Origin: Halomonas sp. GD1P12
Lineage (GTDB): Bacteria; Pseudomonadota; Gammaproteobacteria; Pseudomonadales; Halomonadaceae
DNA length: 64,000 nucleotides
Reading direction: 5' to 3'
NCBI RefSeq assembly: GCF_025725645.1
Contig: NZ_CP107007.1
Coordinates: 1,116,001-1,180,000, forward strand
In this document: one piece after another, positions 38,504 to 50,513 of the stretch
Layout: each line of letters starts with the position of its first letter
How positions within the stretch are numbered: the stretch's first letter is position 1
The notes under the pieces: model-generated
What the model was told of the DNA's origin: nothing
Databases searched by the model: none
Seen by the model: only the letters and a program-made list of their open reading frames with translations
Translations under genes and position numbers: made by a program

Positions 38504-38579
38504 GTCCCATTCGTCTAGTGGTCCAGGACACCGCCCTTTCACGGCGGTAACAGGGGTTCGAACCCCCTATGGGACGCCA
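38504..38579 (+). tRNA. tRNA-Glu (anticodon TTC), copy 1
   Basis: Acceptor GTCCCAT pairs with ATGGGAC, CCA is encoded, T loop GGTTCGAAC, anticodon loop CTTTCAC gives TTC. First of three identical or nearly identical copies. Confidence 0.97.
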
Positions 38580-38602
38580 CTTCATCGTCAAGGTATCGGA
38601 GT

Positions 38603-38677
38603 GCGGGAATAGCTCAGTGGTAGAGCATCGCCTTGCCAAGGCGAGGGTCGAGAGTTCGAATCTCTTTTCCCGCTCCA
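38603..38677 (+). tRNA. tRNA-Gly (anticodon GCC), copy 1
   Basis: Acceptor GCGGGAA with TTCCCGC, CCA encoded, anticodon loop CTTGCCAAG gives GCC. Confidence 0.97.
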
Positions 38678-38683
38678 TAACGT

Positions 38684-38759
38684 GTCCCATTCGTCTAGTG
38701 GTCCAGGACACCGCCCTTTCACGGCGGTAACAGGGGTTCGAACCCCCTATGGGACGCCA
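38684..38759 (+). tRNA. tRNA-Glu (anticodon TTC), copy 2
   Basis: Identical to copy 1; starts six bases (TAACGT) after the preceding tRNA-Gly. Confidence 0.97.
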
Positions 38760-38781
38760 CTCCGAACGCGAAAATTGATAA

Positions 38782-38856
38782 GCGGGAATAGCTCAGTGGT
38801 AGAGCATCGCCTTGCCAAGGCGAGGGTCGAGAGTTCGAATCTCTTTTCCCGCTCCA
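38782..38856 (+). tRNA. tRNA-Gly (anticodon GCC), copy 2
   Basis: Identical to the first tRNA-Gly copy, in the same tandem unit arrangement. Confidence 0.97.
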
Positions 38857-38862
38857 TAACGT

Positions 38863-38938
38863 GTCCCATTCGTCTAGTGGTCTAGGACACCGCCCTTTCA
38901 CGGCGGTAACAGGGGTTCGAACCCCCTATGGGACGCCA
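38863..38938 (+). tRNA. tRNA-Glu (anticodon TTC), copy 3
   Basis: Differs from the other copies by one C-to-T change in the D loop (GGTCTAGG instead of GGTCCAGG). Anticodon and acceptor are unchanged. Confidence 0.97.
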
Positions 38939-38960
38939 ATTTCGCGCCTTCCAGTACTAA

Positions 38961-39035
38961 GCGGGAATAGCTCAGTGGTAGAGCATCGCCTTGCCAAGGC
39001 GAGGGTCGAGAGTTCGAATCTCTTTTCCCGCTCCA
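38961..39035 (+). tRNA. tRNA-Gly (anticodon GCC), copy 3
   Basis: Identical to the other two tRNA-Gly copies; followed directly by a run of T (39037-39042) that may help termination. Confidence 0.97.
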
Positions 39036-43611: not shown

Positions 43612-43971
43612 CTAGCGAAAGGACTGCCTCGCGAAAGGTGGCGCGAGCAAGCGCGACTTGCCGCCAGACGATCTGCAATCGATGAGCGCCCGCCATGCAG
43701 GACGGGCGCAGTTGCCTGGTGTTGTCGTCCGTACCGGCGAGAACGGTTTTGCGCAGTGCCACGGGTTTCATTCCAATAGGCTTTCACACCGCTGTAGGCA
43801 TCGTCATCGGTGACGCTGGCGATGCACAATGGAAAGCTTTTGGTTCTGCCTTCGGTTGGACTTCGGTAGAGCACTTCGACAGCAGTGCCACATTCCTTGG
43901 TACCCCTCGCGATCCCCTCCCAATCCGCATACAATCCCTCATCTCGTCACACCTTTGACCCAGAGAGTTTC
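43612..43971. other. Gene-poor gap upstream of dcm
   Basis: 360 bp between the secreted protein and dcm. Open frames occur on both strands (43608-43934 minus, 43695-43958 plus), but none has a convincing start or resemblance to a known protein. The dcm promoter must lie here; none was assigned. Confidence 0.5.
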
Positions 43972-45405
43972 ATGGCCCTTTCTTTCGATACCGATAACGC
44001 TGCCGGCGCGGATGAATCGCCCTACGCCGAATTTGGCGAGCACGCGCTGCTGGAAAAGCTGCTGGAAATTTATGACCAGCGGGCGATCGCTGAAGCGCTT
44101 TCGGAAGTGGAGCCGGGGCGCTGGTGTCGGGAAACCGTCAACCGCTGGGCGAAGGGGAAGGCGAGCCCAAGTGTGACGCCGGCCGCGCGTCAACGCATGA
44201 TCGCCATGCTGCCCGCGCCCAAGCCAAACGATATTAAACCGGCGTTTCGCTTTGTGGATCTGTTCGCCGGTATCGGCGGGATTCGCAAAGGGTTCGAGGC
44301 GATTGGCGGGGAGTGCGTACTGACCTCGGAGTGGAACAAGTACGCGGTGCGCACCTACAAGGCCAACCACTTTTGCGATCCGCTCAAACATCGCTTCAAC
44401 GAGGACATTCGCGAGCTGACTCTGAGTGCGGATCTCTCCGTGGACGAAGAGGCGGCTTACCGCCATATCGACCGCCACGTACCGGACCACGATGTGCTGC
44501 TGGCGGGCTTTCCCTGCCAGCCGTTTTCGCTGGCGGGCGTATCGAAGAAGAACTCGCTGGGGCGCAAGCACGGGTTCGAGTGCGACGCTCAGGGCACGCT
44601 CTTTTTCGACGTGGCGCGCATTCTCGCGGCCAAGCGGCCGGCGGCCTTCGTGCTGGAGAACGTCAAGAACCTCAAGAGCCACGACCAGGGCAAGACCTTT
44701 CGCGTAATCTGCGAAGCACTTGACGAGCTGGGTTACGAGGTGGCCGATGTCGATGCGCCGAAAGGGCGCGATCCAAAAGTGATCGATGCCAGGCACTTCG
44801 TTCCGCAGCACCGAGAGCGCATCGTGCTGGTCGGCTTTCGCCGCGACCTGAACGTTCACGAAGGCTTCAGCCTGAAAGAGATCGCCAACCTCTACCCGGA
44901 TCAACCGTCGAGCTTTGGCGAGCTGCTCGATGCCGAGGTCAACGATAAGTACGTGCTCACGCCCAAACTCTGGGAGTACCTCTACAAGTACGCCCAAAAG
45001 CATCGCGAAAAGGGCAACGGTTTCGGCTTTGGGCTGACGCGTGAGAATGATGTGGCCCGCACGCTCTCGGCGCGCTATCACAAGGATGGCTCGGAGATTC
45101 TGGTCGACCGCGGATTCGACGACGCCGAGGATTTTTACACTGATGCCAACCAGCGTAACCGGCCCAGGCGGCTCACGCCTCAGGAGTGCGCGCGGCTGAT
45201 GGGGTTCGATGCGCCCGGCGAAAGCCGCTTCGTCATTCCGGTCTCCGATACCCAAGCGTATCGCCAGTTCGGCAACTCGGTGGTCGTGCCGGTGTTCGAA
45301 GCCGTTGCCCGGCTGATGAAACCGCGCCTTCTCGCCGCCGTTAACATAGAAGCAAACCGTCCAATACAGAAAGAGTCCCAACTCGAAACACCGCTGGCGC
45401 GCTAG
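43972..45405 (+). CDS. dcm: DNA (cytosine-5)-methyltransferase, Dcm type
   Basis: C5-cytosine methylase of 477 residues, close to E. coli Dcm (472). An N-terminal helix-turn-helix-like segment (residues 20-75) precedes the catalytic domain: motif I DLFAGIGG (96-103), motif [13 protein letters not shown] with Cys182, ENVKNL (motif VI), and QRxR-like [11 protein letters not shown] (motif VIII). The C-terminal motifs IX-X include [14 protein letters not shown] and [10 protein letters not shown]. By analogy the target is CCWGG, which is inference. It sits 79 bp upstream of vsr, so methylation and mismatch repair are paired. Confidence 0.93.
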
Positions 45406-45484
45406 CTTTTGCTAGAGGTCTGGCGCGGCGGTAAAGGTAGGCCGAGCGTGCTACGCTTTGAAGACCTTCCCGGCGGATACTCGC

Positions 45485-45943
45485 ATGACCGACATCGTTG
45501 ATCGTTCCACGCGTTCGAAAATGATGGCTTCCATCAAGGGCAAGAACACCGCGCCGGAGCGCTTCGTGCAGGCCGAGCTCGAACGGCGCCATATGTCCTT
45601 CGAGGCGCACTCGGTCGAGCTTCCCGGCAAGCCGGACGTGATCCTTCCGCTTTATCAGGTCGCACTTTTCGTCAACGGCTGCTTCTGGCACCGCCACCAG
45701 GGCTGCTTCTACGCCACCACGCCGGCCAGCCAGAAAACGTTCTGGCAGGAGAAACTGGGCGAAAACGTCGAGCGCGACGTGCGCAAGCGCGCCGAGCTCG
45801 AAGCGCTGGGTTGGCGGGTGATCGTCGTGTGGGAGTGCGGGGTCAAGCACTGCCCGGATCAGTTCGAGGAGGTGGTGGAGGCGATCGAAGGCGAGCTTAC
45901 CCTGACCGAGTGGCCCGAGAAGCCGCCGCGAGTACGCGAGTGA
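45485..45943 (+). CDS. vsr: Very short patch repair endonuclease Vsr
   Basis: Nicks DNA next to T:G mismatches that arise when 5-methylcytosine made by Dcm deaminates. The start at 45485 (MTDIVDRSTRSKMMASIKGKNT, quoted as MTDIVDRSTRSKMM) gives 152 residues (E. coli 156). The catalytic Asp51 in PGKPDVILP and the region NGCFWHRHQGC with His69 are conserved, as is RDVRKRAELEALGWRV. Its place behind dcm is the usual arrangement. Confidence 0.95.
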   Translation: MTDIVDRSTRSKMMASIKGKNTAPERFVQAELERRHMSFEAHSVELPGKPDVILPLYQVALFVNGCFWHRHQGCFYATTPASQKTFWQEKLGENVERDVRKRAELEALGWRVIVVWECGVKHCPDQFEEVVEAIEGELTLTEWPEKPPRVRE

Positions 45944-46471: not shown

Positions 46472-46996
46472 TTATTTGACGTCGTTGCCCAGTGCCGACA
46501 AACGCTCTTCGCTCAGCGCGATATCCGCGTTCTTGTTCACGCCGATGCCCTGGTCGATGATGTTCTGGGCGATCTGCTTGGCATCGTCCAGCGAGTGCAT
46601 CACGTAGGTGCCGCACTGGTATTCGTTGAGCTCGGGAATTTCGTCCATGCGGTTGAGTGCCAGCACATCGCGCATGGAGGCAAGCCAGGCCTCGCTGACG
46701 CGCTCTTCCGAGGGGCTTCCCAGAAGGCTCATGTAAAACCCGGTACGACAGCCCATGGGCGAAATGTCGATGATCTCGACGCCGTCGCCGTTCAGGTGGT
46801 TGCGCATGAAACCGGCGAACAGGTGCTCCAAGGTGTGGATGCCTTTTTCACCCATCATGTCTTCGTTGGGCTTGTTGAAGCGCAGATCGAACACGGTGAT
46901 GGTGTCGCCAGAGGGAGACGTCATGGTCTTGGCAACGCGAACCGCCGGGGCGTTCATGATCGTGTGATCGACGGTAAAGCTATCGAGTAGTGGCAT
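46472..46996 (-). CDS. luxS: S-ribosylhomocysteine lyase LuxS
   Basis: Cleaves S-ribosylhomocysteine to homocysteine and DPD, the precursor of autoinducer-2. The 174 residues have the zinc motif HTLEH (His54, His58) with the third ligand Cys128, and the catalytic Cys83 in [17 protein letters not shown] precedes the ATG. No pfs gene is nearby. Whether AI-2 is used as a signal here cannot be told; recycling of methyl-cycle product is certain by family. Confidence 0.97.
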
Positions 46997-47656: not shown

Positions 47657-47686
47657 AAAAAGCACCCTTAAAAAAAGGGTGCTTTT
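47657..47686 (-). terminator. Terminator of the CsrB-like RNA
   Basis: AAAAGCACCCTT (47658-47669) pairs with AAGGGTGCTTTT (47675-47686) around an A-rich loop. The stem has A and T tails on both sides and works on the minus strand for the small RNA. Confidence 0.9.
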
Positions 47687-47883
47687 CCGTTGCCTCTGCT
47701 GGCCTTCCCTGTATTTTGCTTGCTCGTCCTGAGCTTCTCATTTCCTTGAGACGTAAACGCTCGATCCTGAGCTATTTTCATCCTTGAACGCTGGGTACTC
47801 ATCCTGAGTACGTTCACTCCTTGAAGACTTCGTTCTTCCTGAACGGGCGATCCTTCGCGAAGCGGTTTCCTTACCGCGAACAC
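47657..47883 (-). ncRNA. CsrB/CsrC/RsmZ-like CsrA-sequestering small RNA
   Basis: Read on the minus strand, this stretch contains nine successive short hairpins whose loops carry AGGA or AAGGA. Examples are GTACTCAGGATGAGTAC (47795-47811), GTTCAGGAAGAAC (47832-47844), GCTCAGGATCGAGC (47759-47772), GCTCAGGACGAGC (47722-47734), GCGGTAAGGAAACCGC (47862-47877) and CTCAAGGAAATGAG (47737-47750). The others are at 47777-47788, 47813-47825 and 47847-47858. Another GGA (ACAGGGAAGG) lies near the end, and a terminator follows. CsrA/RsmA binds GGA in hairpin loops, and RNAs of this build sequester it. The length of about 227 nt resembles CsrC. A near-consensus promoter lies upstream. There is no coding potential that fits. 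The exact ends are estimates. Confidence 0.88.
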
Positions 47884-47888
47884 TACAG

Positions 47889-47917
47889 ACTATAGAACAA
47901 CGCCAAGGCGTGTACAA
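47889..47917 (-). promoter_or_regulatory. Promoter of the CsrB-like RNA
   Basis: On the minus strand TTGTAC (47912-47917) and TATAGT (47889-47894) are separated by exactly 17 bp. This predicts transcription from about 47883. The -35 overlaps the left arm of the AT-rich dyad at 47912-47941. Confidence 0.8.
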
Positions 47918-47941
47918 TATAAAATTATATTTTTATTGTAC
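47912..47941. promoter_or_regulatory. AT-rich dyad upstream of the CsrB-like RNA
   Basis: Perfect 8-bp inverted arms GTACAATA (47912-47919) and TATTGTAC (47934-47941) with a 14-bp A/T-only centre. It covers the -35 and UP-element region and lies between divergent RNA genes, so it may be a regulator site. Confidence 0.6.
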
Positions 47942-50252: not shown

Positions 50253-50513
50253 GGCTAACTCCCTGAAAAAGATAAGCGAATACGTAACAAATCGTTGGCG
50301 AGCGGGATGCTACCACTTACGTCTATAAAACGTTGGTCGAATGCATACGACTTTGGTCGTGTATGGCTTGCGCCTTTGGGAAGCCACATGAAGGGGGAAA
50401 CGGGCTGGACCCGTGCTGAGTCAAGGGAGGGAAGGGTGCTGAAAAAAGGCACTGGAAAAGGGAGCAGGAGAAGGGTGCAGGAGAAGGGCGGTAGAGGATT
50501 GGCCCAAAGTGAA

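Follow-up and report, generated by a model that had tools for sequence, protein, structure and literature searches.

Architecture of the locus

The window, a 64,000-nt stretch of the genome of Halomonas sp. GD1P12 (genome code G000; 3.78 Mb, a single contig), carries on its minus strand a row of short GGA-loop hairpins enclosed by a promoter and an intrinsic terminator. Positions are 1-based within the window. The start of the predicted RNA was placed from the -10 box and its end from the T run. The RNA and its homologues are called type-1, and a sibling set of about 105 nt is called type-2. The features, with their basis in brackets, are:

47912..47941, minus strand: predicted 30-bp operator GTACAA-N18-TTGTAC, overlapping the -35 box (type-1 comparison)
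47925-47929, minus strand: predicted third operator half-site, TATAA here and TACAA in most homologues, 11 bp from the first half-site
47912..47917, minus strand: -35 box TTGTAC (sequence; hexamer and 17-nt spacer the same in the 16 genomes matching the promoter pattern without mismatch)
47889..47894, minus strand: -10 box TATAGT (sequence; homologues)
47657..47883, minus strand: predicted CsrA-sequestering small RNA, about 227 nt (sequence, fold, nine GGA-loop hairpins, homologues)
47862..47877, minus strand: GGA hairpin 1, GCGGTAAGGAAACCGC (strongly conserved)
47847..47858, minus strand: GGA hairpin 2, GCGAAGGATCGC (compensatory G-C to A-U change in two of five long homologues)
47831..47845, minus strand: GGA hairpin 3, CGTTCAGGAAGAACG (compensatory changes at three pairs in the 17-row core alignment)
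47813..47825, minus strand: GGA hairpin 4, TTCAAGGAGTGAA (hairpin finder)
47795..47811, minus strand: GGA hairpin 5, GTACTCAGGATGAGTAC (hairpin finder; five-homologue alignment)
47777..47788, minus strand: GGA hairpin 6, TTCAAGGATGAA (three-pair stem)
47759..47772, minus strand: GGA hairpin 7, GCTCAGGATCGAGC (hairpin finder)
47737..47750, minus strand: GGA hairpin 8, CTCAAGGAAATGAG (hairpin finder)
47722..47734, minus strand: GGA hairpin 9, GCTCAGGACGAGC (hairpin finder)
47657..47686, minus strand: intrinsic terminator, stem AAAAGCACCCT/AGGGTGCTTTT followed by a T run (sequence, fold)

The promoter consisted of TTGTAC (47917-47912) and TATAGT (47894-47889) separated by 17 nt; the automatic scan instead gave an overlapping promoter, TGTACA-N16-TATAGT, and listed no minus-strand terminator for the RNA. 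The terminator was an 11-pair stem (47686-47658) with the T run reaching 47657, and 10 of its 11 pairs were identical in five homologues, the eleventh being gapped in four. The GGA motifs of hairpins 1-9 were spaced by 17, 14, 19, 16, 21, 16, 22 and 16 nt, and two extra GGAs (CAGGGA and ACGGAA) between hairpin 9 and the terminator brought the total to 11. A sequence-only reading of the window had described nine such hairpins recurring every 14-22 bases, bracketed by this promoter and a strong terminator, and each of these elements was found at the place it had given.

The hairpin finder, applied to 47890-47691, returned nine non-overlapping GGA-loop hairpins, which exceeded the maximum of six among 2,000 dinucleotide-preserving shuffles (range 0-6, mode 1, mostly none to two). 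The runner-up 170-nt stretch of the window reached five on the plus strand and four on the minus strand. The raw GGA count alone was not unique, as the plus strand near 50350-50378 also reached 10 per 170 nt. The fold of 47883-47640 had an energy of -83 kcal/mol (z = -4.09, strong terminator included), and none of 200 shuffles was equally stable. The minimum-energy fold paired hairpins 4-6 otherwise and not as separate loops.

Conservation and structure of the RNA

The promoter pattern GTACAA-N18-TTGTAC-N17-TATNGT, which was derived from six loci, was searched in 82 genomes of the genus, which is probably Vreelandella and many members of which have borne the name Halomonas, and occurred without mismatch in 16 of them; with up to two mismatches it reached 25 genomes, some of them with unrelated matches. 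All 16 zero-mismatch genomes had a GGA-rich RNA candidate downstream, starting with GTTCGCGGCAAGGAAACCGC or similar. A covariance model built from the first 58 nt of the type-1 RNA (17 rows) matched 21 of the 82 genomes at 63.9-79.6 bits, with one locus in each, and the next-best match scored 36.3 bits. Seventeen of the matched genomes had themselves given rows to the model (L017 being the G088 locus), and G087, G010, G095 and G074 had not. The remaining 61 genomes, in each of which a limited candidate set was scored, had nothing at or above 63.9 bits, and the type-1 RNA therefore does not belong to the core genes of the genus. In the best-matching named record, Halomonas sp. S3-1-1, the RNA and the metallothionein gene are both present and arranged as in the window.

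Of the cells in the 17-row core alignment, 97.1% were paired, and three of the eight pairs had changed on both sides, a number reached by 12 of 500 shuffles. The covariation score was 0.176 against 0.074, and none of the 500 shuffles, which ignore relatedness, reached 0.176. Among the five long homologues, 96.7% of the cells were paired and two pairs had changed on both sides; covariation of this long form was modest, its score being reached by 28 of 500 shuffles. In the 10 of 22 rows in which a script located the terminator, the type-1 RNAs were 111-227 nt long with 4-11 GGAs, and single-base insertions and deletions occurred inside the RNA region of the alignment.

Diverged type-1 RNAs were also sought in 29 loci sharing the neighbour gene of L018, the initial 1,600 bases of each being scanned for hairpins, and three-hairpin clusters were found only in G005 and G010, both already known. 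The known carriers G034 and G063 scored two hairpins in the same scan, which indicates its limited sensitivity. At L040 (G087) the type-1 RNA lay near the end of the stretch, with its terminator apparently replaced by a different one, possibly through an assembly artefact. Two further stretches, L138 (G023:C1:2354050-2354450) and L149 (G069:C13:77150-77550), were rich in GGA hairpins and had terminator-like ends; they may be diverged Csr RNAs, and their host species had no strong type-1 match. The loci L085, L086, L099, L102, L137, L139-L148, L150, L200, L205-L208, L211, L212 and L215 were dropped as RNA candidates, since they looked like chance matches or were unclear by eye.

A stand-alone RNA predicted to antagonise CsrA

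The locus is very probably a free-standing gene whose product, a small non-coding RNA, antagonises CsrA, and the earlier view of it as a CsrB/CsrC/RsmZ-like RNA is supported by its architecture, its conservation, the compensatory changes in its stems, the lack of a conserved frame, the presence of CsrA and GacA, and its siblings. CsrA was found in all 41 genus genomes searched, the host protein (G000:C1:2851351-2851506) scoring 92.8 bits to PF02599. GacA was found in 18 of 19 genomes searched, and the GacA/UvrY orthologue of the host scored 284.5 bits at a cut-off of 280.

Protein coding was considered because the minus strand has an open GTG frame of 71 aa (47883-47668) and frames of 76 and 96 aa overlap it on the plus strand. 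The single-base insertions and deletions among the homologues and the variation of their length rule out such a frame almost completely, and the compensatory changes in the stems speak against it as well. With its own promoter and terminator and no conserved frame, the RNA has the marks of an independent non-coding unit, as judged from sequence and homologues.

It is also very improbable that the RNA serves as a 5' leader controlling the metallothionein gene at 47500-47348, which lies on the same strand about 155 bp downstream and matches Pfam Metallothio_Pro (PF02069). A strong terminator intervenes; L018, L020 and L021 keep the metallothionein gene with no GGA-hairpin RNA seen by eye in the preceding 700 bases; and in L003, L004, L018 and L024 the RNA adjoins other genes. 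An RNA that stands next to different genes in different species is not a leader, so that the terminator and the gene order together rule this reading out. The neighbours of the RNA elsewhere include a PfpI-like gene (by eye) and, at L018, a gene that we take to be CLCA-like, to which no Pfam family was assigned.

As a stand-alone sponge, the RNA would act in the manner of CsrB and RsmZ. RNA polymerase would start near 47883 and stop at the terminator near 47657, and the transcript would fold into a row of short hairpins, each showing a GGA in its loop. Each GGA loop would be expected to fill one RNA-binding face of a CsrA dimer; with one loop per face, about four or five dimers might be held by one RNA, and the mRNA targets of these dimers would be freed. 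We infer transcription, CsrA binding and titration, as well as the action of a regulator other than GacA at the operator, by analogy with these known systems.

Other features of the window were noted around the RNA. At 43885-45943, a frame that by eye resembles a DNA cytosine methyltransferase precedes a Vsr mismatch endonuclease (TIGR00632). The luxS gene (S-ribosylhomocysteine lyase, NF002602) lies at 46472-46996, about 660 bp past the terminus of the RNA, and six tandem tRNA genes, two kinds alternating three times, lie at 38504-39032.

Relation to known Csr RNAs

At the gathering level, Rfam found only tRNAs and no Csr family in the whole 64-kb window. When the region was scanned alone, its best match was CsrC with 19.2 bits (E 9e-4) at a cut-off of 61, and when CsrC was searched across the genome at E 10, two other weak places came up and not the window locus. 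None of 20 homologue loci had a Csr-family match above the cut-off; the best sub-threshold matches were to rsmX in L100 (33.5 of 56 bits, E 0.0066) and to CsrB in L002 (24.3 of 71 bits, E 0.0038), and the sub-threshold matches fell in the Csr clan CL00106. The similarity points to the Csr clan, and the RNA does not qualify as a member of CsrB (RF00018), CsrC (RF00084) or PrrB/RsmZ (RF00166), the families named by the sequence-only reading, either at the gathering level or at relaxed E-values.

With CsrB and CsrC of Enterobacteria the window RNA shares the array of GGA-loop hairpins, the promoter and the intrinsic terminator, but the similarity to their models is weak and below the Rfam cut-offs, the number of GGAs is 11 as against 22 in CsrB and 14 in CsrC (counts from an excerpt of PMC11882849), and the TGTAAG-N6-CTTACA box was not found within 367-403 nt upstream. 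As with RsmX, RsmY and RsmZ of Pseudomonas, the host has several sibling RNAs in one genome, the short siblings here being about 105 nt long. According to an excerpt of PMC4950607, an 18-bp upstream site for GacA is part of the promoters of rsmX/Y/Z, whereas such a site was not found before the type-1 RNAs in the stretch scanned or in the 142-259 nt before the type-2 RNAs, the box at L134 excepted. The same excerpt describes RsmW of P. aeruginosa and CsrC of Yersinia pseudotuberculosis as not activated by GacA, RsmW being apparently processed from a 3'-UTR and the Yersinia CsrC responding to PhoP/PhoQ (PMC4950607). Compared by description only, the window RNA differs from RsmW in having a dedicated promoter with its own predicted operator. 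Since GacA-independent Csr RNAs are already known, the window RNA is of a known kind and would be a lineage-specific addition to it with an unusual promoter. In Pseudoalteromonas fuliginea, a non-model marine gammaproteobacterium, the Csr RNAs Pf1, Pf2 and Pf3 have 25, 21 and 9 GGA motifs; Pf2 and Pf3 were recognised by their GGA motifs together with a promoter and a terminator, and their binding of CsrA was demonstrated by EMSA (PMC11882849).

In a comparative table of 2020, available in excerpt, the Csr RNA partner of Halomonas anticariensis was entered as 'Unknown', and its GacS-GacA system was tabulated with quorum sensing, exopolysaccharide and biofilm (PMC7366521). CsrA targets have been modelled in H. 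hydrothermalis, and the excerpt of that paper names no Csr RNA for the species (PMC12889724). No Csr RNA was described for Halomonas or Vreelandella in the titles and abstract openings of the open-licence literature, and no paper there dealt with Vreelandella together with CsrA. The window RNA, its siblings and the two covariance models provide named candidates for the gap in H. anticariensis.

Sibling RNAs in the host and its relatives

The chromosome appears to have at least three candidate sponge RNA genes, including that of the window, and their promoters differ. The type-2 set was reached from second-tier matches of the type-1 model, and its own model (13 rows, about 105 nt) matched 16 places in 12 of the 82 genus genomes at E below 1e-10; at E 0.05 it matched 27 genomes, type-1 loci included. 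The type-2 sibling of the host was matched at G000:C1:2210001-2210073 on the minus strand with 54.8 bits, its own row being part of the model. The locus of this match, L084 (G000:C1:2210074-2209970, minus strand), is a type-2-like sibling of 105 nt and has four GGAs, with no GacA box in the 235 nt scanned and no exact dyad. Among 151 genomes of the family, 17 matched the type-2 model at E 0.001, eight of them in the same genus. Eleven matches in other genera were inspected; L201-L204 appear to be genuine RNAs with GGA hairpins, and the rest were coding-looking or unclear.

The third host candidate, L230 (G000:C1:2863116-2862946, minus strand), came from the search for GacA boxes and contains 10 GGAs in 171 nt. 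Its box, TGTAAGAGATCGCTTACC, has one mismatch and is centred 175 nt upstream; the GacA/UvrY box of csrB is centred at -183, as given in an excerpt of PMC4682653. Similar RNAs with perfect GacA boxes were seen by eye in G059, G063, G068 and G074 (L225/L244, L235, L239, L251). The GGA count of L230 (10) was not above that of dinucleotide shuffles, whose mean was 7.4 and maximum 12, and Rfam found nothing in it, so that the case for this candidate comes from the box, its distance and its conservation. More small GGA-rich RNA candidates were noted at L134, L093, L238, L243 and L249, some of them in tandem behind another Csr-like RNA, and perfect GacA boxes were present at L134, L238, L243 and L249.

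The operator and the GacA box

The type-1 promoter appears to have a conserved TACAA/TACAA/TTGTA operator in place of a GacA box. Both arms of the operator were identical in 19 distinct type-1 loci, which had been selected by that pattern. The middle TACAA lies outside the selecting pattern; with at least four of five letters, it was retained in 17 of 18 loci at a distance of 11 bp from the first half-site, the shuffled maximum being 7. Among the type-2 loci (n=10), GTACAA stood 17 or 18 nt before TTGTGC, exactly in seven, with one mismatch in one and with two in two; by eye, the dyad was not seen in the host type-2 sibling, L093, L094, L096 or L134-L136. Without mismatch, GTACAA-N18-TTGTRC occurred at 18 distinct loci in 15 genomes, 13 of them before type-1 RNAs, four before type-2 RNAs and one inside a 527-aa frame, and the reversed control pattern occurred in one of the 15 genomes (G068). 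The operator of the window was the sole such site in the host genome. As these genomes were chosen for carrying such RNAs, the presence of the operator is biased, and the scarcity of other sites is not.

The box that usually, though not universally, marks GacA-driven Csr RNAs (consensus TGTAAG-N6-CTTACA) did not turn up before the window RNA, judging by the sequence scanned. In the 367-403 nt upstream of the type-1 RNAs, the best match had 4-5 mismatches in 12 positions at 17 of 17 loci, and 64-100 of 100 mononucleotide shuffles matched as well. In the type-2 or related loci (n=17), only 142-259 nt were scanned except at L134, so that a box as distant as that of csrB could be missed in some of them; here too the best match had 4-5 mismatches, apart from L090 (three mismatches, equalled by 4 of 100 shuffles) and L134, where a perfect box lies behind a first RNA and before a second tandem RNA. 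Each of the 15 genomes in which boxes were counted had some with at most one mismatch, 5-39 per genome compared with 0-7 occurrences of the reversed pattern; the surplus was small in the host (5 and 2, respectively) and in G027 (8 and 7).

An unlikely but still appreciable alternative is that the window RNA is an ordinary Csr RNA driven by GacA, either through GTACAA...TTGTAC, through a diverged GacA site or through a box beyond the scanned range. The host does possess the GacA/UvrY orthologue, but near-canonical boxes exist in these genomes, one of them before another Csr-like RNA of the same chromosome, and the recognition helix of GacA looks by eye near-identical to that of other families (SPKTVNTYRYRLF versus SPKTVNSYRYRIF); the upstream matches of the type-1 loci, as given above, are no better than chance. 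In favour of this alternative, UvrY of E. coli cross-links near the -35 of csrB and csrC, where the inverted repeat is not preserved, as described in an excerpt of PMC4682653. If the operator is instead separate from the GacA system, as we prefer to read it, it raises the question of what second signal reaches CsrA in these organisms.

A possible LitR/CarH-type regulator

Sites of similar layout, TGTACAA...TGTACAAT...TTGTACTGTATAAG, were found among the two-mismatch pattern matches upstream of a photolyase-type gene in G005, G066, G075 and G100. Three of them were read as DNA (L025, L032, L047), and that of G005 was taken from its frames (G005:C1:3100267-3100319, L252). Pfam gave photolyase domains in G066 and G005 and DUF2256 in a small intervening frame of G066; the rest were assigned by eye. 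On the opposite strand of the photolyase-linked site, the TACA repeats are also 11 bp apart, and in another genus L203 has TGTACA-N5-TGTACA, likewise with 11-bp spacing, before a GGA-hairpin array. No photolyase site of this pattern is present in the host genome.

CarH binds 11-bp nnTnTACAnnn repeats. Class II LitR binds TGTACA-N12-TGTACA, and one such site overlaps the -35 of a light-induced gene, as stated in an excerpt of PMC9758184. The 11-bp spacing of the type-1 operator fits CarH better than class II LitR, whose N12 spacing was not seen by eye, but two of the operator half-sites are without the leading T of the TnTACA half-sites of CarH and LitR. No MerR/LitR gene was seen near the operators in the window and seven 19.9-kb stretches, which were searched with regular expressions, a weak test; five loose matches were obtained, none of them MerR-like by eye.

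The similar site before photolyase genes in four relatives weakly suggests a regulator of the LitR/CarH type. On this basis one may speculate, with little confidence, that the sponge RNAs of Vreelandella answer to two or more inputs, one group through GacA boxes and the other, including the window RNA, through a TACAA-repeat operator read by a MerR-family sensor of light or B12 of the LitR/CarH type. If this were true, a Csr RNA would link the sensing of light (or cobalamin) to post-transcriptional control on a global scale. As a separate observation, the long GGA-hairpin array of L203, in minus orientation with its match at 1501, continues directly into a start codon, which gives it the look of a Csr-like RNA fused to an mRNA leader.
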